A stretch of DNA of 24,220 nt, taken from IMG/VR virus record IMGVR_UViG_3300009433_000053, positions 1 through 24,220 of that record. One strand, given 5' to 3'. The stretch comes from a virus. Made by a program: the position numbers and the translations under genes. Under the pieces are notes generated by a model. It was given only the letters and a program-made list of their open reading frames with translations, searched no databases and was not told the origin of the DNA. Every line of letters starts with the position of its first letter. Position 1 is the stretch's first letter. This document shows positions 3,011 to 24,220 of the stretch, piece after piece.

Positions 3011-5197
3011 ATGGCGACTCCTCAATTATCTCCAGGCGTAATAGTCAGAGAAGTTGATCTAACAGTAGGAAGAGCTGAAAACGTTCTTGATAATATTGGT
3101 GCGATTGCTGGTCCATTTAAATTGGGACCTATCGATGAACCATATGATATTTCTACTCAACAAGAACTGATCAACACTTTTGGTACTCCTATAAGTACTG
3201 ATAGACAATACGAATACTGGATGACAGCTTCAGAATACCTCTCCTATGGTGGTGTTCTTAAGGTTGTAAGAACAGATGGTACTACACTGAACAATGCTAA
3301 CGCAGGTGTTGGTGCTGCAAGTACAACCGCATCGAAGATTAAAAACTACGATGACTATGAGGAGAACTATTCTTCTGCTACAAACTTCACGTATGCTGCT
3401 AGAAATCCTGGAACCTGGGCAAATAGTCTTAAGGTTTGCACGATTGATAACTTTGCAGACCAGACTCTAGGAATTACGACTACTAGTCCTTCTGCTCTTG
3501 GAGTTGCTGTTGGGTATGGTGTTACATCCGCCCTTTCTAGTGTTCCCATTCCTGGTGCTGGTACAACCTCAACCTTTAATGGATATCTGAAAGGAATCAT
3601 TACAGGTGTCAGCACGGATGCAACGAACAGCAAGAGTTCGATTGACGTTAGAATCGTATCAAGAGTTTCAACTGCTGGAACTGTTTATCCTATCGTATAT
3701 CAGGAAAACAATCCTTCTCAAGCATTTGAAGCAGCGGATACTCTTTCGTTTGTTACTAATGCTGGCGTAACTTCAACAACGACAATCGCTGCACTCGATG
3801 CAAATGATTGGTATGATTCGCAAACTTTGAATCTATCCAACTCAACAATCTTCTGGAAGTCGATTGCTCCAAGACCTGTAACTAGCAACTACGTCTCCAC
3901 AAGAGGAGGAAAGAATGATGCTATGCACGTTGCTGTCGTAGATGATACTGGTGCAGTAACTGGTATTTCAGGAAATCTATTAGAATCTTGGACTGGTTTG
4001 TCTAAGGCAATAGATGGTGAAGCAGATGGCGATTCACCAACCAAAACATATTATAAGAGTTATCTTGCTAATAATTCTAACTGGATTTATGCAGGATATA
4101 ATCCTTCATCCGCAACTGATTCTTATCACGGTACAACTCCTGTTGCTACTGGATTCTCAACTGCCTACACTGCAGTTAGTAGAGGAGACGGTCTATGGGG
4201 TCAGGAAGCAAGTGGTGTAACCTACAGTGCTATTGGAAACAAGACATATGCCTTCGGTGGCGGTGTTGACTATTCTGCTAGCGGCGGTATGGGTGCAACT
4301 CTTGGATCCCTATCTACTTCATATGAACTGTTCGCAAACAGAGATGAAATTGCTGTTGATTATTTGATGATGGGTCCTGGACTTGGTTCGGAACTCGAAT
4401 CTCAAGCAAAAGCAAACAAACTCATTTCTATTGCTGAACTAAGAAAGGATTGCATGGCAACCATTTCTCCTCATAGAGCAAATGTTGTTAATGTATCAAA
4501 TCCAACTACACAAGTTAATAATCTTCTGAAGTTCTATTCGCCTGTAACATCATCCTCTTACGCTGTATTGGATAGTGGTTACAAGTATGTTTATGATAGA
4601 TTCAATAATGAGTTCCGTTATGTCCCATTGAATGGTGATATTGCTGGATTGATGGTAAGAACATCTATTGAGGCATTCCCTTGGTTCTCGCCAGCTGGTC
4701 AGCAAAGAGGCAACATTAATAATACTATTAAACTTGCTCTCAATCCAAACAAAGCACAGCGTGATATCCTATACGGATCAAGAATCAACTCTGTAATCAA
4801 TCAAAGCGGACAGGGCGTAATCCTGTTTGGTGATAAGACTGCTCTTGGTTATGCTTCTGCGTTTGATAGAATCAATGTTCGTCGTCTGTTCCTCACAGTT
4901 GAGCAAGCACTTGAAGAAGCAGCAAATGATCAACTCTTTGAAATCAACGATGATGAAACGAGGGCAAACTTCGTTAACATTGTCGAACCTTACCTGAGAG
5001 ATGTTCAGGCACAAAGAGGTATTCAAGAGTTCTCAATCGTCTGTGACGAAACAAACAACACCCCTGCTATCATTGATAACAATGAGTTTAGAGCAGATAT
5101 CTTCATCGCTCCTACACGTTCCATCAACTACGTCACACTGACGTTTGTTGCTACCAGAACTGGAGTAAGTTTTGAAGAAGTCGTTGGTTCAGTTTGA
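3011..5197 (+). CDS. gp18: Tail sheath protein gp18
   Basis: This is the contractile tail sheath subunit, which surrounds the tail tube and shortens at infection. The 728-aa protein starts MATPQLSPGVIVREVDLT, the typical N-terminus of T4-like sheath proteins. The C-terminal part (from about residue 480) contains the conserved assembly region with PWFSPAGQQRG, NPNKAQRDILY and NSVINQSGQGVILFG, and ends with FVATRTGVSFEEVVGSV. The middle (about residues 100-400) is rich in Ser, Thr, Gly and Ala and is the usual variable, surface-exposed part. It is longer than T4 gp18 (659 aa), as is common in cyanophages. The start is supported by GGAG six bases upstream. Confidence 0.97.
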   Translation: MATPQLSPGVIVREVDLTVGRAENVLDNIGAIAGPFKLGPIDEPYDISTQQELINTFGTPISTDRQYEYWMTASEYLSYGGVLKVVRTDGTTLNNANAGVGAASTTASKIKNYDDYEENYSSATNFTYAARNPGTWANSLKVCTIDNFADQTLGITTTSPSALGVAVGYGVTSALSSVPIPGAGTTSTFNGYLKGIITGVSTDATNSKSSIDVRIVSRVSTAGTVYPIVYQENNPSQAFEAADTLSFVTNAGVTSTTTIAALDANDWYDSQTLNLSNSTIFWKSIAPRPVTSNYVSTRGGKNDAMHVAVVDDTGAVTGISGNLLESWTGLSKAIDGEADGDSPTKTYYKSYLANNSNWIYAGYNPSSATDSYHGTTPVATGFSTAYTAVSRGDGLWGQEASGVTYSAIGNKTYAFGGGVDYSASGGMGATLGSLSTSYELFANRDEIAVDYLMMGPGLGSELESQAKANKLISIAELRKDCMATISPHRANVVNVSNPTTQVNNLLKFYSPVTSSSYAVLDSGYKYVYDRFNNEFRYVPLNGDIAGLMVRTSIEAFPWFSPAGQQRGNINNTIKLALNPNKAQRDILYGSRINSVINQSGQGVILFGDKTALGYASAFDRINVRRLFLTVEQALEEAANDQLFEINDDETRANFVNIVEPYLRDVQAQRGIQEFSIVCDETNNTPAIIDNNEFRADIFIAPTRSINYVTLTFVATRTGVSFEEVVGSV

Positions 5198-5233: not shown

Positions 5234-5872
5234 ATGGCACAAACAAAAACCTTATCACAGTTTAAGAACAGATTAGCGGGCGGTGGGGCCCGCCCCAATC
5301 TCTTTGAAGTTTCTATTCCTGCATTCCCTGCTGCTGTCGGCAGAAGAGTTTGGAGAAATGGAGGCAACAAAGAGAGTGGTCAGTTTAGATTTTTATGCAA
5401 GACCGCACAACTTCCAGCATCAACCATTGCTGAAGTACCCGTTCCTTTCAGAGGTCGTATCTTAAAAGTTGCTGGAGACAGAACTTTTGATACATGGACT
5501 GTTACCGTCATCAATGACGAAGACTTCCAACTGAGAACTGCTTTTGAAGTTTGGATGAATACACTTAGCAAGTTAAACGATGCTACTGGTGTTACCAATC
5601 CTTCTTCATATATGACTGATGCTTATGTCCAGCAACTGGGCAGAGGTAGACAGGCAGAATCAACCAGAAACAGCAGAGGCGGAAGAAGTTCAGAACTTAG
5701 AAATTACAAGTTCTATGATATCTTCCCAACTGAAGTATCTGCTATTGACCTGAGTTATGATAGCACTGATACCATTGAGGAGTTCACAGTAACTTTCCAG
5801 GTTCAGTACTTCACTATCGGTAACTCTCTCCAGAGAAACAGAGGCGCTAGAGGACAGACTCTGGTACAGTGA
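5234..5872 (+). CDS. gp19: Tail tube protein gp19
   Basis: This is the subunit of the inner tail tube through which DNA passes. The 212-aa protein begins MAQTKTLSQFKNRLAGGGAR and continues with PNLFEVSIPAFP, the tube-fold opening strand. It then has the segment FRFLCKTAQLPASTIAEVPVPFRGR, cited here only by its key features: a CxTAxLP-type loop and PFRGR. It ends with FTVTFQVQYFTIGNS. The order sheath-tube is that of T4. A purine-rich AGAGGA (5220-5225) upstream serves as the ribosome binding site. The stop TGA is immediately followed by TAA and overlaps the gp20 late promoter. Confidence 0.95.
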   Translation: MAQTKTLSQFKNRLAGGGARPNLFEVSIPAFPAAVGRRVWRNGGNKESGQFRFLCKTAQLPASTIAEVPVPFRGRILKVAGDRTFDTWTVTVINDEDFQLRTAFEVWMNTLSKLNDATGVTNPSSYMTDAYVQQLGRGRQAESTRNSRGGRSSELRNYKFYDIFPTEVSAIDLSYDSTDTIEEFTVTFQVQYFTIGNSLQRNRGARGQTLVQ

Positions 5873-5905: not shown

Positions 5906-7588
5906 ATGTCGAGATTATTTGGTTTCTCAATTGAAGATGATGATAAAGACTCGTCTGGTGTAGTATCTCCGATCCCTCCTAATAACCAGGATGGATCTGA
6001 GCACTACGTCACGACGGGTTTTTATGGTTCATATGTAGATATTGAAGGTGTATATAAGAACGAAAACGAACTTATCAGAAGATATCGTTCAATGTCGCTC
6101 TATCCAGAATGTGATAGTGCTATTGAAGATGTCGTAAATGAAGCAATTGTTGCTGATACGAATGATAGTCCTGTAAGTATTGAACTATCAAACTTAAACG
6201 CAAGCGATGGAATTAAAAAGAAAGTAAGAGAAGAGTTCAAACGTATTTTAGAACTTCTTGATTTTGATAAAAAGGCACATGAAATCTTCCGTAATTGGTA
6301 TATTGATGGAAGACTATATTACAATAAAGTTATTGATCAAAAGAATCCCACTGCTGGTATTCAAGAATTAAGATATATTGACGCATCAAAAATGCGTTAT
6401 GTTCGTCAGGTAAAGAAACCAAAAAACGGCAATAATCCTCTTTCAAATGTTAAAAGAGAAGATCCTGCAACATATGATTTTCCAGAAATTGAAGAGTTTT
6501 TTGTATATGCTCCTGGTGGATCTGGATCAACTGGAGGATATAATACAGGAACAATGTCAATGGGTGGTGCTTCAAAAGGCATCAAAATGACAAGAGATTC
6601 AATAACATATTGTACCTCAGGATTAGTAGATAGAAATAAGGGATCAACTCTTTCTTGGTTGCATAAAGCAATCAAACCACTCAATCAATTAATGATGATT
6701 GAGGATTCTCTTGTTATCTACAGACTTTCAAGAGCACCAGAAAGAAGAATCTTCTACATTGATGTTGGCAATCTACCTAAGGTAAAGGCAGAACAGTATC
6801 TTCGTGATGTGATGATGCGTTATAGAAATAAACTTGTCTATGATGCTAACACTGGTGAAGTTCGTGATGATAAGAAGTTCATGTCTATGATGGAAGACTT
6901 CTGGCTTCCTAGACGTGAAGGTGGTAGAGGAACTGAGATTACAACTCTACCAGGTGGTCAAAATCTCGGAGAAATTACTGATATCAACTACTTCCAAAAG
7001 AAGTTATATAGAGCACTCAATGTACCTGAAACTAGAATTCAAGGAGAAACTGGTTTCTCAATGGGTCGTTCATCAGAGATTCTAAGAGATGAGATCAAGT
7101 TCTCCAAGTTTGTTGGAAGAATGAGAAAGAGATTCTCAGATATGTTTAGCGACATGTTGAGAACACAACTGATTCTTAAGAATATCATTACTCCTGAAGA
7201 CTGGGAGTCAATGTCAGATCATATTCAATATGATTTCTTGTATGATAACCATTTTGCTGAACTCAAAGAAGCAGAACTTACTACTGAAAGAGTTAATCTT
7301 GCTCAATTGGTTGAACCATATGTTGGCAAGTACTATTCTAATGATTATGTTAGAAGAAATATCCTGCGTCAAAGCGACCAAGAAATTCAAGAGCAGGACA
7401 AACTAATCGAGAACGAAATCGAAAGTGGTTTGATTCCAGATCCAGCATCTATGGATATTGATCCTGCTACAGGTCAACCGATGGCACCAGTTCCTGGAGA
7501 TACTTCGGGAAGTGTTATGGGTGCTACTCCTCAGGCACCAGAGATTGATGAAACAAAATTTGAAACACCCACAGGTGGAGAAATCTAA
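5906..7588 (+). CDS. gp20: Portal vertex protein gp20
   Basis: This protein forms the dodecameric portal at one vertex of the head, which nucleates prohead assembly and is the channel for packaging. The 560-aa protein begins MSRLFGFSIEDDDK and has the typical N-terminal block with YRSMSLYPECDSAIEDVVNE. A central Gly/Ser-rich loop (about residues 205-225) follows. The conserved core contains RAPERRIFYIDVGNLPK, the block with MMRYRNKLVYDANTGEV, then WLPRREGGRGTEITTLPGG and NVPETRIQGETGFSMG. This gene is the usual marker for cyanomyovirus diversity. Its length is close to T4 (524 aa). There is no clear Shine-Dalgarno sequence before the ATG; the leader instead reads TCTAATAATG. Confidence 0.97.
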   Translation: MSRLFGFSIEDDDKDSSGVVSPIPPNNQDGSEHYVTTGFYGSYVDIEGVYKNENELIRRYRSMSLYPECDSAIEDVVNEAIVADTNDSPVSIELSNLNASDGIKKKVREEFKRILELLDFDKKAHEIFRNWYIDGRLYYNKVIDQKNPTAGIQELRYIDASKMRYVRQVKKPKNGNNPLSNVKREDPATYDFPEIEEFFVYAPGGSGSTGGYNTGTMSMGGASKGIKMTRDSITYCTSGLVDRNKGSTLSWLHKAIKPLNQLMMIEDSLVIYRLSRAPERRIFYIDVGNLPKVKAEQYLRDVMMRYRNKLVYDANTGEVRDDKKFMSMMEDFWLPRREGGRGTEITTLPGGQNLGEITDINYFQKKLYRALNVPETRIQGETGFSMGRSSEILRDEIKFSKFVGRMRKRFSDMFSDMLRTQLILKNIITPEDWESMSDHIQYDFLYDNHFAELKEAELTTERVNLAQLVEPYVGKYYSNDYVRRNILRQSDQEIQEQDKLIENEIESGLIPDPASMDIDPATGQPMAPVPGDTSGSVMGATPQAPEIDETKFETPTGGEI

Positions 7589-8406: not shown

Positions 8407-9057
8407 ATGAAACTTATCAGAGAAGAAATCGAATCAGTAGATTTTATCGTTGAAGAACGCAACGGTAAGAAGCATATGTTCATTGAAGGCATCTTTCTTC
8501 AAGGTGAGATGCAAAATAGGAATGGAAGAATGTATCCTATGAGTGTCCTGAGAAAGGAAGTTCAAAGATACAATGAGAATCATATTCAGTCAGGTAGAGC
8601 ACTTGGAGAACTTGGACATCCAGATGGTCCAACTGTTAATTTGGACCGCGTTAGTCACAAAATCGTTTCGCTAAAGGAAAACGGAACTAACTTTATTGGT
8701 AAAGCAAAAATCCTTTCTACTCCAATGGGTAAGATTGCAGAATCTCTCATCGGTGAAGGAGTCAAACTTGGCGTTTCTTCTAGAGGAATTGGATCTCTAA
8801 AAGCAACAAGAGAAGGTATAAATGTTGTTGGCGATGACTTCATGCTTTCTACTGCTGCAGATATTGTAGCAGACCCTTCTGCACCTGATGCTTTCGTTGA
8901 AGGTATCATGGAAGGTAAAGATTGGGTATGGGATGGAGGCATTCTTCGTGAGAGGGCAGCCGTCAAAACATACAAACAGATCAATACTTTAGTTGATCAA
9001 GGTCAATTGGATGAACAGAAATTGAATCTGTTCAATAATTTCCTTAATAACCTGTAA
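8407..9057 (+). CDS. gp21: Prohead core protease gp21
   Basis: This serine protease (T4-type family S77, herpesvirus-protease-like fold) matures the prohead by cleaving scaffold and capsid proteins. The 216-aa protein is the same length as T4 gp21 (212 aa). The conserved RALGELGHPDGP supplies the candidate catalytic His71, and LGVSSRGIGSL supplies the candidate nucleophile at Ser124/Ser125. The following ADPSAPDAFVEGI is also typical of the family. The start follows the previous stop by 5 bases with no good Shine-Dalgarno sequence, so coupling with the upstream gene is likely. Its substrates, gp22 and gp23, follow immediately. Confidence 0.95.
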   Translation: MKLIREEIESVDFIVEERNGKKHMFIEGIFLQGEMQNRNGRMYPMSVLRKEVQRYNENHIQSGRALGELGHPDGPTVNLDRVSHKIVSLKENGTNFIGKAKILSTPMGKIAESLIGEGVKLGVSSRGIGSLKATREGINVVGDDFMLSTAADIVADPSAPDAFVEGIMEGKDWVWDGGILRERAAVKTYKQINTLVDQGQLDEQKLNLFNNFLNNL

Positions 9058-9113: not shown

Positions 9114-9827
9114 ATGTCTCGTGGAGATTTACAAGAAATGGAGCAATCTAAAACTGCTGTGAACGCGAACGCTAAAGCTGGTGATGCCATGCCTAAAATG
9201 GTTGATCCAGGCACACAACTAGCGTCTGTTGAAGATCTCGGTGGTCCAACCCCCGAGAACTACAAGCCAGATAATGATTCAGCAAAACTCAAAGAACCCA
9301 AGATTAAGACCGTCCATGACGTTGTTAATCGTGGTGCCAAGGCTGCTGATGCAATGGCAAAAATGTCCAAAGAAGAAACTGAAGTCGAAGAGGAGGTCCT
9401 TGAAGAGGATCAAGTTGATGAGACTGAAGAAGTCATCGAAGAGGAATCCTCTGAAGATGATGGTATTGATATCGATGAAGATGTCAATGCTCTTCTTGGT
9501 GGCGAAGAACTCTCCGAAGAGTTTAGAGAAAAAGCAAAGGTTATCTTTGAAGCCGCTCTTAACTCTAAAGTAAAGGAAATCCAGGAAGCTCTGGAAGTCC
9601 AATATGCAGAACAACTGCAAGAAGAAAAAGAAGGTCTTAAGGAATCACTCACTACAAGAGTTGATTCGTATCTTGAGTACGTCTGCGAAGAGTGGATGAC
9701 CGAGAATGCACTTGCTGTTGAAGCAGGTCTTAAAACCGACATGACCGAATCATTCCTTGCCGGAATGAAGGGTCTTTTTGAAGAACATTATGTAACAATC
9801 CCTGAAGAAAAATATGATGTGCTGTAA
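9114..9827 (+). CDS. gp22: Prohead scaffold gp22, N-terminal part (interrupted by in-frame TAA)
   Basis: The main scaffolding core protein of the T4-like prohead is degraded by gp21 before DNA fills the head. This 237-aa part starts MSRGDLQEMEQSKTAVNANA. It holds a degenerate internal repeat (NAKAGDAMPKM and GAKAADAMAKM), a very acidic stretch (about residues 87-130) and a helical, Glu-rich coiled-coil-like segment. Translation ends at TAA 9825-9827 after KYDVL. One codon later the same frame reopens with ATG and continues the helical scaffold sequence for 118 aa. Read through, the product would be 356 codons, a normal size for a cyanophage scaffold. I therefore regard this as one ancestral gene broken by a nonsense change, a recent split, or a sequence error. 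Confidence 0.9.
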   Translation: MSRGDLQEMEQSKTAVNANAKAGDAMPKMVDPGTQLASVEDLGGPTPENYKPDNDSAKLKEPKIKTVHDVVNRGAKAADAMAKMSKEETEVEEEVLEEDQVDETEEVIEEESSEDDGIDIDEDVNALLGGEELSEEFREKAKVIFEAALNSKVKEIQEALEVQYAEQLQEEKEGLKESLTTRVDSYLEYVCEEWMTENALAVEAGLKTDMTESFLAGMKGLFEEHYVTIPEEKYDVL

Positions 9828-9830
9828 AGC

Positions 9831-10187
9831 ATGGTAGACAAACTTGATGAAATGGAGACCAAGCTCAACGAGCAGATCGATAAGAATATTTCCCTAAACA
9901 AGCGTCTCGCAGAGTCGGTTGCCGATGGTATCTTAGATCAAATTTCTGAAGGTCTTGCACAGACCCAGAAAGAGAAGCTCGCTTCACTTGCCGAAAGTGT
10001 TGAGTTTGAAAGTGAAGAAGAATATCGTGGAAAGCTGGAAACATTGAAGGAGTCATATTTCTCCTCAACAACAACTTCAGCCCCTAAAGCATCCCAACAA
10101 ACCCTTTCTGAGGGAGTAGATACTACAGATGCACCTGTTAAAGCAGGTATGGATCAGTATCTTAAAGCACTGGGTGCTTTTAAATAG
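9831..10187 (+). CDS. gp22: Prohead scaffold gp22, C-terminal part (same frame after TAA)
   Basis: These 118 aa begin MVDKLDEMETKLNEQIDKN, a heptad-like coiled coil that directly continues the scaffold helix of the upstream ORF. The segment ends with LKALGAFK. The frame is the same as the upstream part, separated only by TAA AGC. No Shine-Dalgarno sequence stands before this ATG, so if it is made separately it probably depends on termination and reinitiation by the ribosome that finished the first part. It has no late promoter of its own. The gp23 gene follows after 55 bases. As a family gp22 is a single polypeptide, so the two-piece state is unusual. Confidence 0.8.
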   Translation: MVDKLDEMETKLNEQIDKNISLNKRLAESVADGILDQISEGLAQTQKEKLASLAESVEFESEEEYRGKLETLKESYFSSTTTSAPKASQQTLSEGVDTTDAPVKAGMDQYLKALGAFK

Positions 10188-10242
10188 TGAACACAAAATT
10201 GATTCAAACAAACACTAAAAATTTTTAAAAGAGGTAAAGCAA

Positions 10243-11682
10243 ATGTTCCAATCCGAACATCTGCAGGAAAAGTGGAGTCCCCTTCTCGATTATGAGGGTC
10301 TTGATCCAATCAAAGACGCTCATCGTAGATCGGTAACCGCAGTCCTGCTCGAAAACCAAGAAAAGTTCCTTAAAGAGGAAGCAGCATTTAGTCAGGGTAT
10401 CAACCTGATGGAAACCCCCACCAATAGCGGCAATGCTGCTGGTGCGTCTGGTGGTTTCAGTGGTTCTGCCCCCGCAACCGGCCCTGTTGCTGGTTTCGAC
10501 CCCGTACTGATCTCCTTGATCAGACGCGCAATGCCTAACTTGGTCGCATATGACCTTGCTGGCGTTCAACCGATGAACGGTCCTACTGGACTGATCTTCG
10601 CAATGCGTTCCCGCTATAACAATCAGAGCGGAAACGAGACATTCTTCGATGAAGTCGATACCGCATTCTCCGGTCAGGACGACGGTTTCAACCTGGAAGC
10701 AGGTTTTGCCGATGGCCCTGTTGGTCTTGGTACTACTTCACAAGGTTCAGGCGGTAATCCTTCCGTTCTTAACCCCGTTGGTACTGCAACCACGAACCCC
10801 TCACCATACAACGTTGGTGAAGGTATGGTTACAGGTGACTCTGAGAACCTGGGAGCAGGTACTGGAGATCACTTCAACCAGATGGCATTCTCGATTGAGA
10901 AAGTCACTGTAACCGCCAAGTCAAGAGCTCTGAAAGCAGAGTACTCCTTGGAACTGGCACAAGACCTTAAGGCAATTCACGGTCTTAACGCTGAAGCAGA
11001 ACTTGCTAACATCCTCTCTACTGAAATCCTTGCGGAAATCAACAGAGAAGTTATCAGAACCATCTATAAGGTTGCTGAACAGGGTGCTGTTTCTAACACC
11101 GCTACTCAAGGCGTATTTGACCTTGACGTTGACTCCAACGGTCGTTGGTCTGTTGAGAAGTTCAAAGGACTTCTTTTCCAAATCGAAAGAGACGCCAACG
11201 CGATTGCCCAGCGCACTCGTAGAGGGAAGGGCAACATGGTTCTGTGTTCCGCAGACGTTGCTTCCGCTCTGACTATGGCAGGAATCCTGGATTATACCCC
11301 TGCTCTGAACTCCAACCTTAACGTTGACGACACCGGCAATACTTTCGCTGGTACTATCAATGGTAAGTTTAAGGTCTACATCGACCCATACGCTGCAAAC
11401 TTGACCAGTGGGAATGCTCCTTCTGCCTCCGGTAACCAGTATTACGTCGTTGGTTATAAGGGTTCTTCCCCTTATGACGCTGGACTGTTCTATTGTCCTT
11501 ATGTTCCTCTCCAGATGGTTCGCGCCGTTGGTGAGAACACCTTCCAGCCCAAAATTGGCTTTAAGACCCGTTATGGTCTTGTTGCTAACCCATTCGCTGA
11601 AGGAACCACTCAGGGACTTGGCAGACTTCGTATTAACTCTAACCGTTACTACAGAAGAGTTGCTGTTAAGAACCTTATGTGA
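10243..11682 (+). CDS. gp23: Major capsid protein gp23
   Basis: This is the main shell protein of the head. The 479-aa protein begins MFQSEHLQEKWSPLLDYEG and has the hallmark segments of T4-like capsids: LISLIRRAMPNLVAYDLAGVQPM (quoted by its key part RRAMPNLVAYDL), then GPTGLIFAMRSRY, then SRALKAEYSLELAQDLKA, and a C-terminus with KIGFKTRYGLVANPF and NRYYRRVAVKNLM. The N-terminal ~60 residues form the helical propeptide normally removed by gp21; LKE near residue 46 would fit the T4 cleavage preference, which is an inference. Codon choice is shifted toward C-ending codons (AAC, GAC, TTC, ACC, CCC) compared with neighbours, as expected for the most highly expressed late gene. GAGG (10231-10234) is the ribosome binding site. 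A strong terminator follows. Confidence 0.98.
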   Translation: MFQSEHLQEKWSPLLDYEGLDPIKDAHRRSVTAVLLENQEKFLKEEAAFSQGINLMETPTNSGNAAGASGGFSGSAPATGPVAGFDPVLISLIRRAMPNLVAYDLAGVQPMNGPTGLIFAMRSRYNNQSGNETFFDEVDTAFSGQDDGFNLEAGFADGPVGLGTTSQGSGGNPSVLNPVGTATTNPSPYNVGEGMVTGDSENLGAGTGDHFNQMAFSIEKVTVTAKSRALKAEYSLELAQDLKAIHGLNAEAELANILSTEILAEINREVIRTIYKVAEQGAVSNTATQGVFDLDVDSNGRWSVEKFKGLLFQIERDANAIAQRTRRGKGNMVLCSADVASALTMAGILDYTPALNSNLNVDDTGNTFAGTINGKFKVYIDPYAANLTSGNAPSASGNQYYVVGYKGSSPYDAGLFYCPYVPLQMVRAVGENTFQPKIGFKTRYGLVANPFAEGTTQGLGRLRINSNRYYRRVAVKNLM

Positions 11683-11755: not shown

Positions 11756-12397
11756 ATGGCAGGTCAATCACGAAAACTTGGAACTGCTGCTCAAGTAAGA
11801 ACCAGACAACCAATTAGAGGTGGTTCTTTAGAAAAAGAAAGAGTAGCAAAATTAAAACAAGTTGCTGATAGAAACTTTCTTCAACCTTCTGGGTTTAAGA
11901 TGATTATATCAAGATCGCCTAAAGTTGCTTTCTTTGGTAATGCAGTAAATATTCCTGAGTTGATTTTAGGAACTACTATACAACCAACTGCTGGTCTTAA
12001 GAACATCAATAGACCTGGAGAGATTATTGAGTTTGGTGATTTAAATTTAAGGTTTTTGGTAGATGAAAACTTAGAAAACTATATTGAAGTACAGAACTGG
12101 ATAAGAGGTATTGGTTTTCCAGAATCGCTAGATCAAATTTATGATTTTCAAGACAATACAGAAGGAGTTGCTAGACCAGACTTACAAACAGGTCTGAATC
12201 TATATTCTGATGGAACTCTTCTAGTGTATGATTCGATGATGAATCCAAACTTCAAAGTTCATTTTCAAGATATGTTTCCTTACTCTTTGACTACTCTACA
12301 GTTTGATGCTACACTTTCCGACACGGAATACTTTACAGCAGAGGTTAGTTTCAAGTATACTATATACAACATTGAATCCGTTGGTTGTTGTGCATGA
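11756..12397 (+). CDS. Tail protein, candidate gp3 tail completion or tube-fold protein
   Basis: This 213-aa protein has a basic N-terminus (residues 1-45). The following domain has the pattern of tail-tube-like folds: FKMIISRSPKVAFFGNAVNI with a PELILGT loop, then RPGEIIEFGDLNLRFLVDEN, then NYIEVQNWIRGIGFPES. The DEN...W...GFPES signature recurs in marine T4-like phages. The gene after gp23 in cyanophages is, from memory, usually called gp3 (tail completion and sheath stabiliser, 176 aa in T4). The fold hints could equally indicate a tube-initiator protein of the gp54/gp48 type. A late promoter and the neighbours support a virion role. The stop overlaps the UvsY start (ATGA). Confidence 0.8.
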   Translation: MAGQSRKLGTAAQVRTRQPIRGGSLEKERVAKLKQVADRNFLQPSGFKMIISRSPKVAFFGNAVNIPELILGTTIQPTAGLKNINRPGEIIEFGDLNLRFLVDENLENYIEVQNWIRGIGFPESLDQIYDFQDNTEGVARPDLQTGLNLYSDGTLLVYDSMMNPNFKVHFQDMFPYSLTTLQFDATLSDTEYFTAEVSFKYTIYNIESVGCCA

Positions 12398-12828
12398 TTG
12401 ACCTTGTGACTATACAAGGCATGTGGGAAAAGGACTCAAAGATTGATCCAGATAATTTACATACTGAATCACTCAATATTCCAGTTCTACATGCCAAATA
12501 TTATGATGTATATAATAACTTAATGCTTCTGAGGAAGAAAGCAGAGCAACAAAGAAAAAATACTAGACACGAAAGATATGAGTACTATTCTGGAAAAGCA
12601 GACCTAGATGTATATGCAGAGAATCCATTTCCTAAAAAGATTAGAGATAAGGACACTATGCAAAAATATTTGGACGCGGATACAAAACTCTCAGGATTTT
12701 CGTTGAAGATAGAATATTATGATACGATGTTGAGGTATATTGAAGAGATACTCAAACAAATAACTAATAGAACATATCAAATTAAAAACGCCATAGAGTT
12801 TATGAAGTTTTCTTCAGGGTTAGGATAA
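12394..12828 (+). CDS. uvsY: Recombination mediator UvsY
   Basis: UvsY loads the phage recombinase UvsX onto single-stranded DNA covered by gp32. From ATG 12394 the protein has 144 aa, close to T4 UvsY (137 aa). It matches that family in the segment LRKKAEQQRKNTRHERYEYY followed by SGKAD, and in the helical C-terminus (YDTMLRYIEEILKQITNRTY, then QIKNAIEFMKF). The ATG overlaps the preceding stop as ATGA. Upstream in-frame TTG codons at 12385/12388 are less likely starts. The product is cytoplasmic and acts in recombination-dependent replication together with the UvsW helicase encoded just downstream. Confidence 0.9.
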   Translation: MIDLVTIQGMWEKDSKIDPDNLHTESLNIPVLHAKYYDVYNNLMLLRKKAEQQRKNTRHERYEYYSGKADLDVYAENPFPKKIRDKDTMQKYLDADTKLSGFSLKIEYYDTMLRYIEEILKQITNRTYQIKNAIEFMKFSSGLG

Positions 12829-13054: not shown

Positions 13055-14518
13055 ATGGCTGACCTGGTGATACAGAAGGTGAACGAAGTTTACCTGAAGA
13101 TTAATACTGAACCTCATGTCGAATATGAACTGAGAGATAGATTCACTTTTGAGGTTCCAAATAAAAAGTTTATGCCTCAGTACAGAAGTAAGTACTGGGA
13201 TGGATATGTACACTTATTCAATATGAAGACTAAGAGAATCTATGTTGGTCTCTTGGATAAGATTGTAGCATTTTGTGAGCAGGCAGGATATTCATATCAG
13301 TTTGAAGATAATAAATTTTATGGTCCTCCATTTGAAGTCAATCAAATGATTTCAGAGGAAGGAGTCAAAGACTTTATGGGGACAATCACTAATCTCAAAC
13401 CAAGAGATTATCAGATTGATGCTGTTCATGATGCATTGAGATATAATAGAAAACTTCTTATATCTCCAACTGCATCTGGCAAGTCATTCATGATCTATAC
13501 GATTGTGAGATACTTTGTTAACTCAGGCAGAAAGATACTTCTTGTAGTACCCACTACATCGCTTGTAGAGCAGATGTTTAAGGACTTCCAGGACTATGGG
13601 TGGGATGCGGAGAACTACTGCCATAGAATCTATGCAGGACGTGAGAGAATCAATACTAATGAAGTAACTATTACTACCTGGCAGTCTGTGTATCAGTTAG
13701 ATAGAAAGTTCTTTGAGGACTATGATGTGGTGATTGGTGATGAGGCGCACCTTTTTAAAAGTAAGTCTCTTGTTGGGATCATGGACAAGTTACACCATGC
13801 TAAGTATAGATATGGATTCACAGGTACTTTAGACGGCACACAGACGCATAAGTGGGTGTTAGAGGGTCTCTTTGGTCCATCATACAAAGTCACTCAAACA
13901 AAGAAACTAATTGATCAAGGTCATCTTGCTACGCTTGATATTCAATGTCTTGTATTGAAGTACAAACCAAAGAAGTTTCAAACTTATGAAGATGAGATTC
14001 AGTTTCTTATATCACATGAAAAAAGAAATAACTTTATTAAAAATCTATCAATAGATCTGAAAGGCAATACCTTGATTCTATTCAGTCGTGTTGAAGCTCA
14101 CGGTAAGGTACTTTTTGAATTAATAAATAAAAATGTAGATGAAGGAAGAAAAGTATTCTTTATTCATGGTGGTGTAGACGCCCAAGATAGAGAAAACGTA
14201 AGAGCGATTACTGAACTGGAAAAGGATGCAATCATTGTTGCTTCTTACGGAACATTCAGTACAGGAATCAATATCAAGAACCTTCATAACGTAATATTTG
14301 CCTCTCCATCCAAATCTCGTATACGCAACCTACAAAGTATTGGTAGAGTCCTACGAAAAGGCAAAGATAAGACTAAAGCAAAACTTTATGATATTGCTGA
14401 TGACTTAACTATTGGTTCTAGGAAAAACTATACCTTAAACCATTTTATTGAAAGAGTGAAAATATATGTTCAAGAACAATTTAACTATGACATCATATCC
14501 ATTGATATAAAAGACTAG
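13055..14518 (+). CDS. uvsW: UvsW helicase (SF2, recombination and replication)
   Basis: UvsW is a superfamily 2 helicase that unwinds branched DNA and R-loops and shifts T4 replication from origin- to recombination-dependent mode. The 487-aa protein is close to T4 UvsW in size. Visible motifs are the Q-like RDYQIDAV (about 117), Walker A PTASGKS (138-144), the DEAH box IGDEAHLF (D229-H232), motif III FTGTLDG (about 255) and motif VI QSIGRVLRKGK (about 426-436). The N-terminal ~110 residues are the small DNA-binding domain, including YRSKYWDGYVHLF. A late promoter precedes it. The gene is followed by AAGGAG and the Sm-like gene. Confidence 0.95.
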   Translation: MADLVIQKVNEVYLKINTEPHVEYELRDRFTFEVPNKKFMPQYRSKYWDGYVHLFNMKTKRIYVGLLDKIVAFCEQAGYSYQFEDNKFYGPPFEVNQMISEEGVKDFMGTITNLKPRDYQIDAVHDALRYNRKLLISPTASGKSFMIYTIVRYFVNSGRKILLVVPTTSLVEQMFKDFQDYGWDAENYCHRIYAGRERINTNEVTITTWQSVYQLDRKFFEDYDVVIGDEAHLFKSKSLVGIMDKLHHAKYRYGFTGTLDGTQTHKWVLEGLFGPSYKVTQTKKLIDQGHLATLDIQCLVLKYKPKKFQTYEDEIQFLISHEKRNNFIKNLSIDLKGNTLILFSRVEAHGKVLFELINKNVDEGRKVFFIHGGVDAQDRENVRAITELEKDAIIVASYGTFSTGINIKNLHNVIFASPSKSRIRNLQSIGRVLRKGKDKTKAKLYDIADDLTIGSRKNYTLNHFIERVKIYVQEQFNYDIISIDIKD

Positions 14519-18941: not shown

Positions 18942-21062
18942 ATGCCTGTTAACTACCAAATCAAATCACAGCTCGCTAAACTGCTCGCTACAGAAGACCT
19001 GGTTGTAGAGAATCGGAATGTAGAGACTGCTCAGTTTAATGTAGATACCCGTGTGCTGACTCTTCCTAACTGGAAACGCGCAAGTGAGAGCGTGTATGAT
19101 ATGCTTGTCGGGCATGAAGTGGGACACGCATTATACACTCCCAATGTAGATCCTCCTAGACATATTCCACATCAGTTTGTTAATGTAACTGAGGATGCTC
19201 GTATTGAGAAATTAATCAAACGACGTTATCCTGGATTGTCTAAAACATTTTACAAAGCATATAATGAACTTTCTGATGATGATTTCTTTTGTTTAGAGGA
19301 TGAAGATGTAGACGCAATGAACCTTGCTGATCGGGCAAACCTCTGGTTTAAGATTGGTGGGTTTATTGATCTAACCTTTACAGAAGATGAGCAAAAAATC
19401 ATTGATGTTATTGGGGCATCTGAGACTTACAATGATGCCTGTATAGCAGCAGAGATGCTCTATGCTTATTGTAAGGACCAACATGAGCAGCAACAGCAAC
19501 AACAAAGTAAATCTCAGCAACCTGATAAAGAAACAAAAAGTAATTCAGAAAATCAACAAATCGAATCATCACCATCTTCTGAGATGGAAGAAGGAGAAGT
19601 TGATACTGAATCTAAGTTTGAGCAAGAACAAGAAGAAAACACCGAGACTTCTAATAGTAATATCAAAGTCCAAACCGATGAAACGTTTCAAGAGGGTGCT
19701 CAAGAATTCAATAGTGCTGCTGACTTTGGACAATCTCTTTATTGTGAAGTTCCTAATGTTGATTTAAGTCAAATTGTAATTAGTAATCAAGATGTTCATG
19801 ATGAACTTGGTGGAAACTGGATTGCTGAGGCATTAGATAAACCATGGTATGGTCGTGATGGTCGGGTTGAGCAAATCTTAAAAGGTTCTGACTACAGCAG
19901 TGTTGATACAGAATATGCCAAGTTTAAAAAATCAGCACAGAAAGAAGTAAGTTATATGGTAAAAGAGTTTGAGTGTAAAAAATCTGCTGATGCATATTCT
20001 CGTTCTGCAGTATCTAGAACTGGTGTTTTGGACTGCACCAAACTTCATACTTACAAGTATAATGAAGACTTATTCCGAAAGGTAACTGTTGTTCCCGATG
20101 GAAAGAATCATGGATTGATTTTTATTCTTGATTGGTCTGGTTCAATGCAGGACTGTCTTCTTGATACCATCAAGCAACTTTATAATCTGATTTGGTTTTG
20201 TAATAAAGTCAATATTCCTTTTGATGTTTATGCCTTTACTAACAACTATCAGAAGAAATCTTTTGAATGGAAGCATGACCTATCCGAATATACTCATTCA
20301 GAAATGAAAGAAGGTATGTTTACTATAGATCCTCAGTTCAGTCTGATGAAATTCTTTACCAGTGATGTGAAACGTAATGAACTGGAGAAGCAACTTCTTT
20401 CTATCTGGCGAGTTGCTTATAGTATTAATAAGTGGGTTAACTATACTATTCCTTCTAATTTTGGACTTTCTGGAACTCCTTTGAATGAATCATTGATTTG
20501 TCTCCACTCTATTATTCCTGAGTTTAAAAAAACAAATGGGGTTCAGAAAGCGCATTGTGTAATCCTGACCGATGGTGAAGCAAATCATCTCTCTGTGCTT
20601 ACTAACTATCAGTACAAGGGTGAAGAACGTTTGGGGTCAACCCGACTCACTATGAACTCATATGTTCGTAATAGGAAAACTGGATACACTTATGCAGTTC
20701 CAAAAGAATACTATAACTTTACTGGAATCCTTTTAGAAGATCTTCAACAGTCATTTCCTGAGGTAAACTTTATCGGTATTCGTTTGACCTGTGGTCGTGA
20801 GTTGCGTAGTTTTATTCGTAGGTATCATATCCTTACCGAGACAGAAGAAAAGATGATTCGTAAAGAAAAATCTTTTACCATTAAAGATTCTGGATACACT
20901 AAGTACTTCGGTATCCTTACAAGTTCTCTTCATATGGATACTGATTTTGATGTTGATGAGGGAGCATCTAAGGCAAAAATCAAATCTGCCTTTGTTAAGA
21001 ATCTTAAAGCAAAAGCACTAAATAAAAAAGTGCTGAGTCAGTTCATGGATCTGGTCTGCTGA
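18942..21062 (+). CDS. CobT-like protein: HExxH metallopeptidase-like domain plus VWA domain
   Basis: The protein has 706 aa. The N-terminal ~170 residues contain MLVGHEVGHALY, a zinc-metallopeptidase-like HExxH (H58, E59, H62), followed by NVTEDARIEKLIKRRYPG, where E84 could be the third ligand. A Gln-, Glu- and Ser-rich linker (about 180-262) is low-complexity. The C-terminal half is a von Willebrand A domain with a full MIDAS: FILDWSGSM (D397, S399, S401), a later SGTPLNES and VILTDGEAN. This order, with ExARxE segment, acidic linker and VWA, resembles CobT, the partner of CobS in aerobic cobaltochelatase. The next gene encodes a CobS-like ATPase, so the two probably act as one machine. 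The real target in the phage is unknown. The leader lacks a Shine-Dalgarno sequence. Confidence 0.88.
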   Translation: MPVNYQIKSQLAKLLATEDLVVENRNVETAQFNVDTRVLTLPNWKRASESVYDMLVGHEVGHALYTPNVDPPRHIPHQFVNVTEDARIEKLIKRRYPGLSKTFYKAYNELSDDDFFCLEDEDVDAMNLADRANLWFKIGGFIDLTFTEDEQKIIDVIGASETYNDACIAAEMLYAYCKDQHEQQQQQQSKSQQPDKETKSNSENQQIESSPSSEMEEGEVDTESKFEQEQEENTETSNSNIKVQTDETFQEGAQEFNSAADFGQSLYCEVPNVDLSQIVISNQDVHDELGGNWIAEALDKPWYGRDGRVEQILKGSDYSSVDTEYAKFKKSAQKEVSYMVKEFECKKSADAYSRSAVSRTGVLDCTKLHTYKYNEDLFRKVTVVPDGKNHGLIFILDWSGSMQDCLLDTIKQLYNLIWFCNKVNIPFDVYAFTNNYQKKSFEWKHDLSEYTHSEMKEGMFTIDPQFSLMKFFTSDVKRNELEKQLLSIWRVAYSINKWVNYTIPSNFGLSGTPLNESLICLHSIIPEFKKTNGVQKAHCVILTDGEANHLSVLTNYQYKGEERLGSTRLTMNSYVRNRKTGYTYAVPKEYYNFTGILLEDLQQSFPEVNFIGIRLTCGRELRSFIRRYHILTETEEKMIRKEKSFTIKDSGYTKYFGILTSSLHMDTDFDVDEGASKAKIKSAFVKNLKAKALNKKVLSQFMDLVC

Positions 21063-21084
21063 CCACCCATTAAACTGTCCAAAC

Positions 21085-21107
21085 GAGGGGGGAAATTGAC
21101 CTCCTTT
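21085..21107 (+). other. G-run hairpin just upstream of cobS
   Basis: GAGGGGGG (21085-21092) can pair with CCTCCTTT (21100-21107) over 8 bp with three G-U pairs and a 7-base loop. It is upstream of the cobS -10 box, so only transcripts reading through from the CobT-like gene would carry it. No T-tract follows, so a terminator role is uncertain. Confidence 0.4.
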
Positions 21108-21111
21108 GTCC

Positions 21112-21117
21112 TATAAT
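21112..21117 (+). promoter_or_regulatory. Candidate -10 box of the cobS-like gene
   Basis: A perfect TATAAT lies 24 bases before the cobS ATG. No good -35 is found at 17 bases: a TTGACC at 21096-21101 is only 10 bases away. The promoter may be activator-dependent or use a different spacing. The predicted leader is short, about 18 bases, with no Shine-Dalgarno sequence. Confidence 0.45.
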
Positions 21118-21141
21118 ATCTTTGTTGAACAAACCAAGCAC

Positions 21142-22239
21142 ATGGCACTTTCTACTGAATACGTCGTTACGTCCCTTCAAAATCTTTATGGTGATTCAAT
21201 CACTGCTGCTGATGTTCGTGCATGGTGCAGTATGAATGGGAGCACTTATCAGACGGTTTCTAAAAAACTTGATACATATAAGTCTGGTCGTGGTCGCTGG
21301 AATCTCACTGCTCAAGAAAAACTGGAACAATCATATCAAGCACCTTCTTCTACTCCTCCTATCGAACAGACTCTTATTCCTGAAAAAGATGATACTTTCG
21401 TCAAGTTTGGTACGTTTGGTGATGTTAAGAAGATTATTCAGTCCGGTTTATTCTATCCTACGTTTATCACAGGTCTTTCTGGGAATGGCAAAACCTTCTG
21501 TGTTGAACAAGCATGTGCTCAACTCAAGAGGGAACTGATTCGTGTCAACATTACCATCGAAACTGATGAAGACGATCTTATTGGTGGGTTTCGTCTTATT
21601 AATGGCGAAACTGTTTGGCATAACGGTCCTGTCATCGAAGCTTTGGAACGTGGAGCTGTGTTGCTTTTAGATGAAGTTGACCTTGCTTCTAATAAAATTC
21701 TTTGCTTACAATCTATTCTTGAAGGTAAAGGTGTTTTCCTGAAGAAGACTGGATTGTTTGTTAAACCCATGGAGGGATTCAATGTTATTGCAACTGCAAA
21801 TACTAAAGGTAAAGGCAGCGATGACGGTCGCTTTATTGGAACTAACGTTCTCAATGAAGCATTCTTAGAACGCTTCTGCGTAACCTTTGAACAGTCTTAT
21901 CCAACACCTTCTACCGAGCAGAAGATCTTAGAAGGCATCTCTTCAGATCTTGGTATTGATGATAATAAGTTCTGTAAGAACCTTGTTGATTGGGCAGACA
22001 TCATTCGTAAGACATTCTTTGATGGGGGCATTGAAGAAGTCATTAGTACTCGTCGGTTGGTCCACATCATTCGTGCCTATAGTATTTTTGGTGATAAGTC
22101 AAAAGCAATTCAAGTTTGTGTAAATCGTTTTGATGAAGAAACCAAAGCATCTTTCTTGGAACTTTATGATAAAGTTGATGTTGACTTTCAGATGAACACC
22201 GATAAAATCTATGCAATTGACGGGGGTTCTAATATTTGA
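21142..22239 (+). CDS. cobS: CobS-like AAA+ ATPase (MoxR type)
   Basis: The cyanophage CobS family is named after the ATPase subunit of aerobic cobaltochelatase, but its role in phages is unproven. From ATG 21142 the protein has 365 aa; the frame is open further upstream only through a TTG that overlaps the -10 box. The N-terminal ~85 residues are a small helical domain. The AAA+ core has Walker A GLSGNGKT (111-118), Walker B VLLLDEVDLA (D177, E178), sensor 1 NVIATANT (N220) and an arginine-finger region EAFLERF (R244). The adjacent CobT-like VWA gene makes a MoxR-VWA pair. No CobN-like chelatase subunit is in the window. Confidence 0.92.
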   Translation: MALSTEYVVTSLQNLYGDSITAADVRAWCSMNGSTYQTVSKKLDTYKSGRGRWNLTAQEKLEQSYQAPSSTPPIEQTLIPEKDDTFVKFGTFGDVKKIIQSGLFYPTFITGLSGNGKTFCVEQACAQLKRELIRVNITIETDEDDLIGGFRLINGETVWHNGPVIEALERGAVLLLDEVDLASNKILCLQSILEGKGVFLKKTGLFVKPMEGFNVIATANTKGKGSDDGRFIGTNVLNEAFLERFCVTFEQSYPTPSTEQKILEGISSDLGIDDNKFCKNLVDWADIIRKTFFDGGIEEVISTRRLVHIIRAYSIFGDKSKAIQVCVNRFDEETKASFLELYDKVDVDFQMNTDKIYAIDGGSNI

Positions 22240-23596: not shown

Positions 23597-23788
23597 ATGA
23601 GAGTAATAGGCAGTTCTCTTGCGATTGTTGCCTATTTTATTGTTATTCATGTTGACGTGATGATGGGTGTAATGGCTCATTTCATTGCTGATTTTATTTC
23701 AGTTCCTTACTTTGTTCGCACAAAGTCTTGGGATGTGGTTATAATGTTAGTATTCCTATTGACGATTTCTCTGTCAAAATTGTTATGA
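23597..23788 (+). CDS. Small membrane protein after gp45
   Basis: From ATG 23597 this is a 63-aa protein. An earlier in-frame ATG at 23537 would overlap gp45 by 53 bases and is less likely. It has a hydrophobic first segment (about residues 3-18, VIGSSLAIVAYFIVIHV), a weaker middle segment and a hydrophobic C-terminal segment (VVIMLVFLLTISL) after a basic loop (VRTKSWD). It would thus cross the membrane two or three times. I recall similar short membrane proteins near gp45 in cyanophages. The function is unknown. Its stop overlaps the next start (ATGA). Confidence 0.7.
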   Translation: MRVIGSSLAIVAYFIVIHVDVMMGVMAHFIADFISVPYFVRTKSWDVVIMLVFLLTISLSKLL

Positions 23789-24220
23789 ACATCTTTGTAA
23801 CTGATCCTAGTCCATACGAGTCTGCCAGGGTTCTCCCTGACAAGCACATCGTCAAGATGCCTCTAGAGACTTGTCAGATGCTTGCTATTGTATGCTCCGA
23901 TAAGTGGGGACATAACTTTGGCACTCTTCCTAGAGCAGACGGTACTCCCTATGCTACTGAGAAGGGTGCTTTTCGTAATCATCCCTGTACTATCTGGGCA
24001 AATGAGTTTGTGACTAACTGGCAGTGGTTGCTTGCTCACGGACTTGCTATGTGTGATGAATACACCGCTCGCTATGGCAAGGTCCACACCTGCCAGAAGA
24101 CGCTTCTAGCAGCAAAAGAGATACTTCCTACAGCAGATGTACAAGGTCGCAGTGGGAAGGATACAACACCCTTTGTATTTGCAGGACCTGATGAGTTCAA
24201 GTTAGATACTTCAATATCCA
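23785..24220 (+). CDS. Pyrimidine-dimer-glycosylase-like protein, 3' end outside window
   Basis: The frame opens at ATG 23785, overlapping the previous stop as ATGA, and runs without a stop to the window end (145 codons visible). It begins MNIFVTDPSPYESARVLPDK, followed by HIVKMPLETCQMLA, then GTPYATEKGAFRNHPC and ARYGKVHTCQKTLLAAKEI. The MNIFVTD...DKHIVKM.LET start is common in cyanophage proteins that are often labelled pyrimidine dimer DNA glycosylase (Pyr_excise-like) or left hypothetical. If correct it would repair UV damage, which makes sense for a sunlit-ocean phage. Similarity to T4 endonuclease V itself is not obvious, so the function is tentative. Confidence 0.75.
   Translation, partial: MNIFVTDPSPYESARVLPDKHIVKMPLETCQMLAIVCSDKWGHNFGTLPRADGTPYATEKGAFRNHPCTIWANEFVTNWQWLLAHGLAMCDEYTARYGKVHTCQKTLLAAKEILPTADVQGRSGKDTTPFVFAGPDEFKLDTSIS

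Follow-up and report, generated by a model that had tools for sequence, protein, structure and literature searches.

A single in-frame stop codon in the head scaffold gene 22 of a T4-like cyanophage contig

Introduction

Gene 22 is essential in phage T4 (PMC9576892), and its product gp22 is the major core protein, with about 580 copies per prohead (PMC9958956). For T4 gp21, a short form (gp21s) that is initiated internally, at Met45, is reported to be essential, and the published gp21 cleavage motif is L/I-X-E (PMC9026906). Among cyanophage isolates, gp22 was found as one intact gene flanked by gp21 and gp23 in P-TIM68, S-SM2, P-SSM2, S-BM3, S-CAM7, S-ShM2, Bellamy and RN05-S. A single unbroken frame is a trait of these genes, which are members of PHROG 237 (head scaffolding protein). 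The copy of gene 22 analysed in this study departs from that trait by a TAA at 9825-9827. Literature on cyanophage gp22, internally initiated scaffolds, cyanophage recoding and G-to-T library artefacts contained nothing that settles the case.

Results

The window (the whole stretch of DNA that was analysed, a virus record of 24,220 bases) carries the T4-like head and recombination gene block of a cyanophage. The phage is an ordinary T4-like cyanophage of the Kyanoviridae type. The genes are listed below, as named by position and by match to an annotated isolate.

987-2693, large terminase
3011-5197, tail sheath
5234-5872, tail tube
5906-7588, portal
8407-9057, + strand, gene 21 (gp21, prohead protease), intact, upstream neighbour of gene 22; ends as in the closest relative and is 97.7% identical to it
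9114-10187, + strand, gene 22 (gp22, head scaffold), read through, between gp21 and gp23
10243-11682, + strand, gene 23 (gp23, major capsid protein), intact, downstream neighbour of gene 22; full length and 97.5% identical to the closest relative
11756-12397, gp3-like
12385-12828, UvsY
13055-14518, UvsW

Beyond UvsW lie gp47, gp46 and then a gene that we take to be gp45-like, the name gp45 being our own assignment.

The closest relative found is an 83-kb contig (L002), 93% identical to the window across 22.6 kb. In a gene-by-gene comparison that ran up to the incomplete 3' end of the window, the other comparable genes are open and end as in L002, save for a few whose ends differ slightly. Some features of the window stand apart from this general agreement. 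Its first gene (2-979) has about 430 bp of extra sequence relative to L002, at 538-970, with a DUF6321 domain in the C-terminal end of the gene inside the extra sequence; L002 runs directly into the terminase gene. At 18942-22239 a 706-aa protein with no Pfam match ('peptidase' in a relative) adjoins a CbbQ/MoxR-type AAA ATPase, the final residues of which are unlike those of L002. A pyrimidine dimer DNA glycosylase domain (Pyr_excise, PF03013) is found at 23788-24219, within a gene truncated where the contig stops.

Gene 22 occupies the same position between gp21 and gp23 as in the isolates. Its frame starts at 9114, runs into TAA at codon 238, continues through AGC at 9828-9830 and ATG at 9831, and closes with TAG at 10185-10187. 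These coordinates, given in an earlier note made from the window's sequence, proved right on translation of 9114-10190, in which one internal stop was found (...IPEEKYDVL*SMVDKLDEMETKLNEQ...). The parts of the gene and the region around the stop are as follows.

9114-9827, + strand, N-terminal 237 codons of gene 22, ending at the TAA; PHROG 237, E=8.8e-67, profile positions 9-242 of 364
9825-9827, + strand, in-frame TAA, codon 238; GAA or GAG in nearly all relatives and His, Asp or Asn in a few
9831-10187, + strand, C-terminal part of gene 22, 118 codons read in frame with the first part, from an internal Met codon; PHROG 237, E=9.1e-37, profile positions 245-361 of 364
9741-9959, + strand, run of 219 bp in which the sole difference from L002 is G-to-T at 9825

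The two parts thus match adjacent stretches of one family profile. Read through, the gene has 357 codons, close to the median of 358 among 108 distinct intact relatives (323-379 codons), which bears out the earlier note's view that the joined parts have the normal length of a scaffold. In a structure model of the intact L002 protein (mean pLDDT 62.6 overall, about 72-91 around codon 238), a helix is predicted for residues 231-295, with codon 238 at its eighth position, and this prediction agrees with the note's further view that one continuous helix runs over the stop site. Its proposal of a single G-to-T change in a GAA codon fits the comparison with L002, in which the codon at this place is GAA and the rest of the surrounding 219 bp is identical.

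Survey of related loci revealed that the stop is confined to the window. At codon 238 no stop was found in the 79 of 80 first-search loci where the site could be read; nearly all have GAG or GAA and a few have CAT. A 26-base context allowing G or T at the site occurs in 109 contigs, and every copy fetched, apart from the window, has G. A pattern requiring TAA or TAG at the site had no match in 2.9 million viral contigs, a public collection that may omit near-copies of the window, so that recurrence of TAA within the same population could be hidden. Nor was any further in-frame stop in gp22 detected among 191 matching sequences. Alignment of gp22 from related cyanophages, a check put forward in the earlier note, consistently gave a sense codon, nearly always Glu, at codon 238. 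Two separate scaffold genes in relatives, which the note had named as a finding that would refute its reading, were not found: the isolates have a single gp22, the searched contigs have no stop at the site, and a natural split gene in relatives was accordingly rejected. The stop is present in the given sequence, and the relatives have no gene boundary at that place.

These results bear directly on the possibility that translation stops at 9825 and restarts 3 nt further on at ATG 9831, giving proteins of 237 and 118 residues that assemble together. The TAA-AGC-ATG spacing permits termination-reinitiation in principle, the essential second start inside T4 gp21 (PMC9026906) demonstrates that extra starts exist in head genes, and the break falls just 8 residues into the predicted helix, so that the C-terminal piece would retain nearly the whole of it. 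Against this, none of the relatives is split, the sequence around the stop shows no accompanying change, and the Met at 9831 is invariant in all 129 aligned gp22 rows (the window being one row, distant isolates included). The Met therefore predates the stop and is an ancestral internal residue. No Shine-Dalgarno match was found in the 18 nt upstream of 9831, whereas the gp22 and gp23 starts have one (a GGAG upstream of the gp22 start); on its own this is a weak point, since several other window genes also have no such match. A conserved internal start was also considered from reduced synonymous variation near codon 240. Entropy there is low (lowest 3-18% of windows along the gene), yet other parts of the gene have lower values still, and the choice of loci relied in part on DNA patterns covering the spot; this low value is thus no evidence for a start and the candidate was rejected. 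The earlier note's suggestion of two proteins made by termination-reinitiation gained no positive support, and we regard a two-piece scaffold as highly improbable.

Another way to a full-length gp22 would be natural readthrough of the stop, a suppressor tRNA or a reassigned TAA. The window is part of a genome, and a suppressor may be encoded elsewhere in that genome or in the host; neither the window nor the 83-kb contig of L002 yielded a tRNA gene. The AGCATG that follows the stop matches, on inspection, no known readthrough motif. At least nine other genes of the window terminate in TAA exactly where their L002 counterparts end; TAA is therefore a normal terminator here and its reassignment was rejected. 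Readthrough or suppression, which the earlier note had also listed, likewise found no positive support and is very unlikely, if marginally less so than a two-piece scaffold.

Decay of gene 22 as an old pseudogene, its role having been taken over by another scaffold, has nothing in its favour besides the stop itself. The C-terminal part is as conserved against L002 as the N-terminal part (18 synonymous and 14 nonsynonymous codon differences in the N-terminal part, five and five in the C-terminal part), the gene has a single stop and no frameshift, and no other gene of the window was recognisable as a scaffold. This is the least credible of the explanations considered. The stop site was also compared with the gp21 cleavage motif; most relatives have V-L-E at this place, unlike L/I-X-E, and a cleavage site was rejected.

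In-frame stops of this kind are rare per codon. Eight core genes in the loci compared, which are partly non-independent, add up to about 296,000 codons, and two such stops were found in them: the one in the window's gp22 and one in gp23 of a 2.5-kb contig (L120), where codon 9 has changed from GAA to TAA (L120:1185-1211). This codon is GAA in 106 relatives. Loss of the major capsid protein should make a phage non-viable. The gp23 case therefore indicates that lone nonsense bases in essential genes do occur in assembled contigs, as noise or as defects, and such cases are to be expected when many windows are scanned.

The window is not generally error-rich. Of 1,415 positions that are otherwise invariant, one has a private residue in the window, which ranks 58th of 181, and an error-rich contig was rejected as an explanation. 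A general error problem is thus unproven, which leaves room for a real rare variant. Many private residues at otherwise invariant core-gene positions were observed in three other contigs, L139, L145 and L154 (for example 38 of 926 in L139), which are either divergent phages or error-rich assemblies.

Discussion

Overall, our analysis suggests that the stop is very probably an isolated G-to-T nonsense substitution in codon 238 of gene 22, arising from a consensus error or carried by a defective or rare genome. Since none of the roughly 190 related loci has the stop, an error or a defective genome is a better account than a new two-part scaffold. Between these two sources we infer that a wrong base in the assembled consensus, introduced by a read error, by amplification or by low coverage, is the more probable and would on balance explain the stop.

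A less likely but serious alternative is that the nonsense variant is real and belongs to a defective or rare genome in the natural population sampled, where it would be present by chance or be rescued by complementation during co-infection. The contig is otherwise clean, and non-viable genomes exist in metagenomes. On the other hand, no second contig has TAA at the site, and an allele that kills the phage should be scarce among virions and not often end up as the consensus of an assembly. With a real stop and no suppression, the phage would make a truncated scaffold of 237 residues that lacks the greater part of its last long helix; since T4 cannot do without gene 22, a failure of head assembly would be expected.

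As one unshared nonsense base in one contig, the stop carries little biological weight. Were it real and fixed, it would mean that a T4-type scaffold could work in two pieces. The case also counsels caution: when an essential gene in a metagenomic virus contig has a lone premature stop, it should be compared with its relatives before anyone proposes that the gene is split or recoded.

Comparison with known systems places the window's gene as follows. The T4 gene 22 amber mutants, which are conditional lethals, resemble it in having a nonsense codon within an essential scaffold gene; they are laboratory mutants grown on suppressor hosts, whereas the window phage is known from sequence and not from culture, and gives no evidence of a suppressor. 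The internal start of T4 gp21 is similar in that an in-frame Met inside a head gene could serve as a start, and differs in that the Met of the window is an ordinary conserved residue with no ribosome-binding site. The closest likeness is to cyanophage gp22 of PHROG 237 (Synechococcus phages RN05-S, S-B05, S-SM2 and Bellamy; Prochlorococcus phages P-SSM2 and P-TIM68), with which the window shares the 21-22-23 gene order, the read-through length, the sequence on both sides of the stop and the profile positions; these phages have a sense codon, nearly always Glu, where the window contig has TAA.
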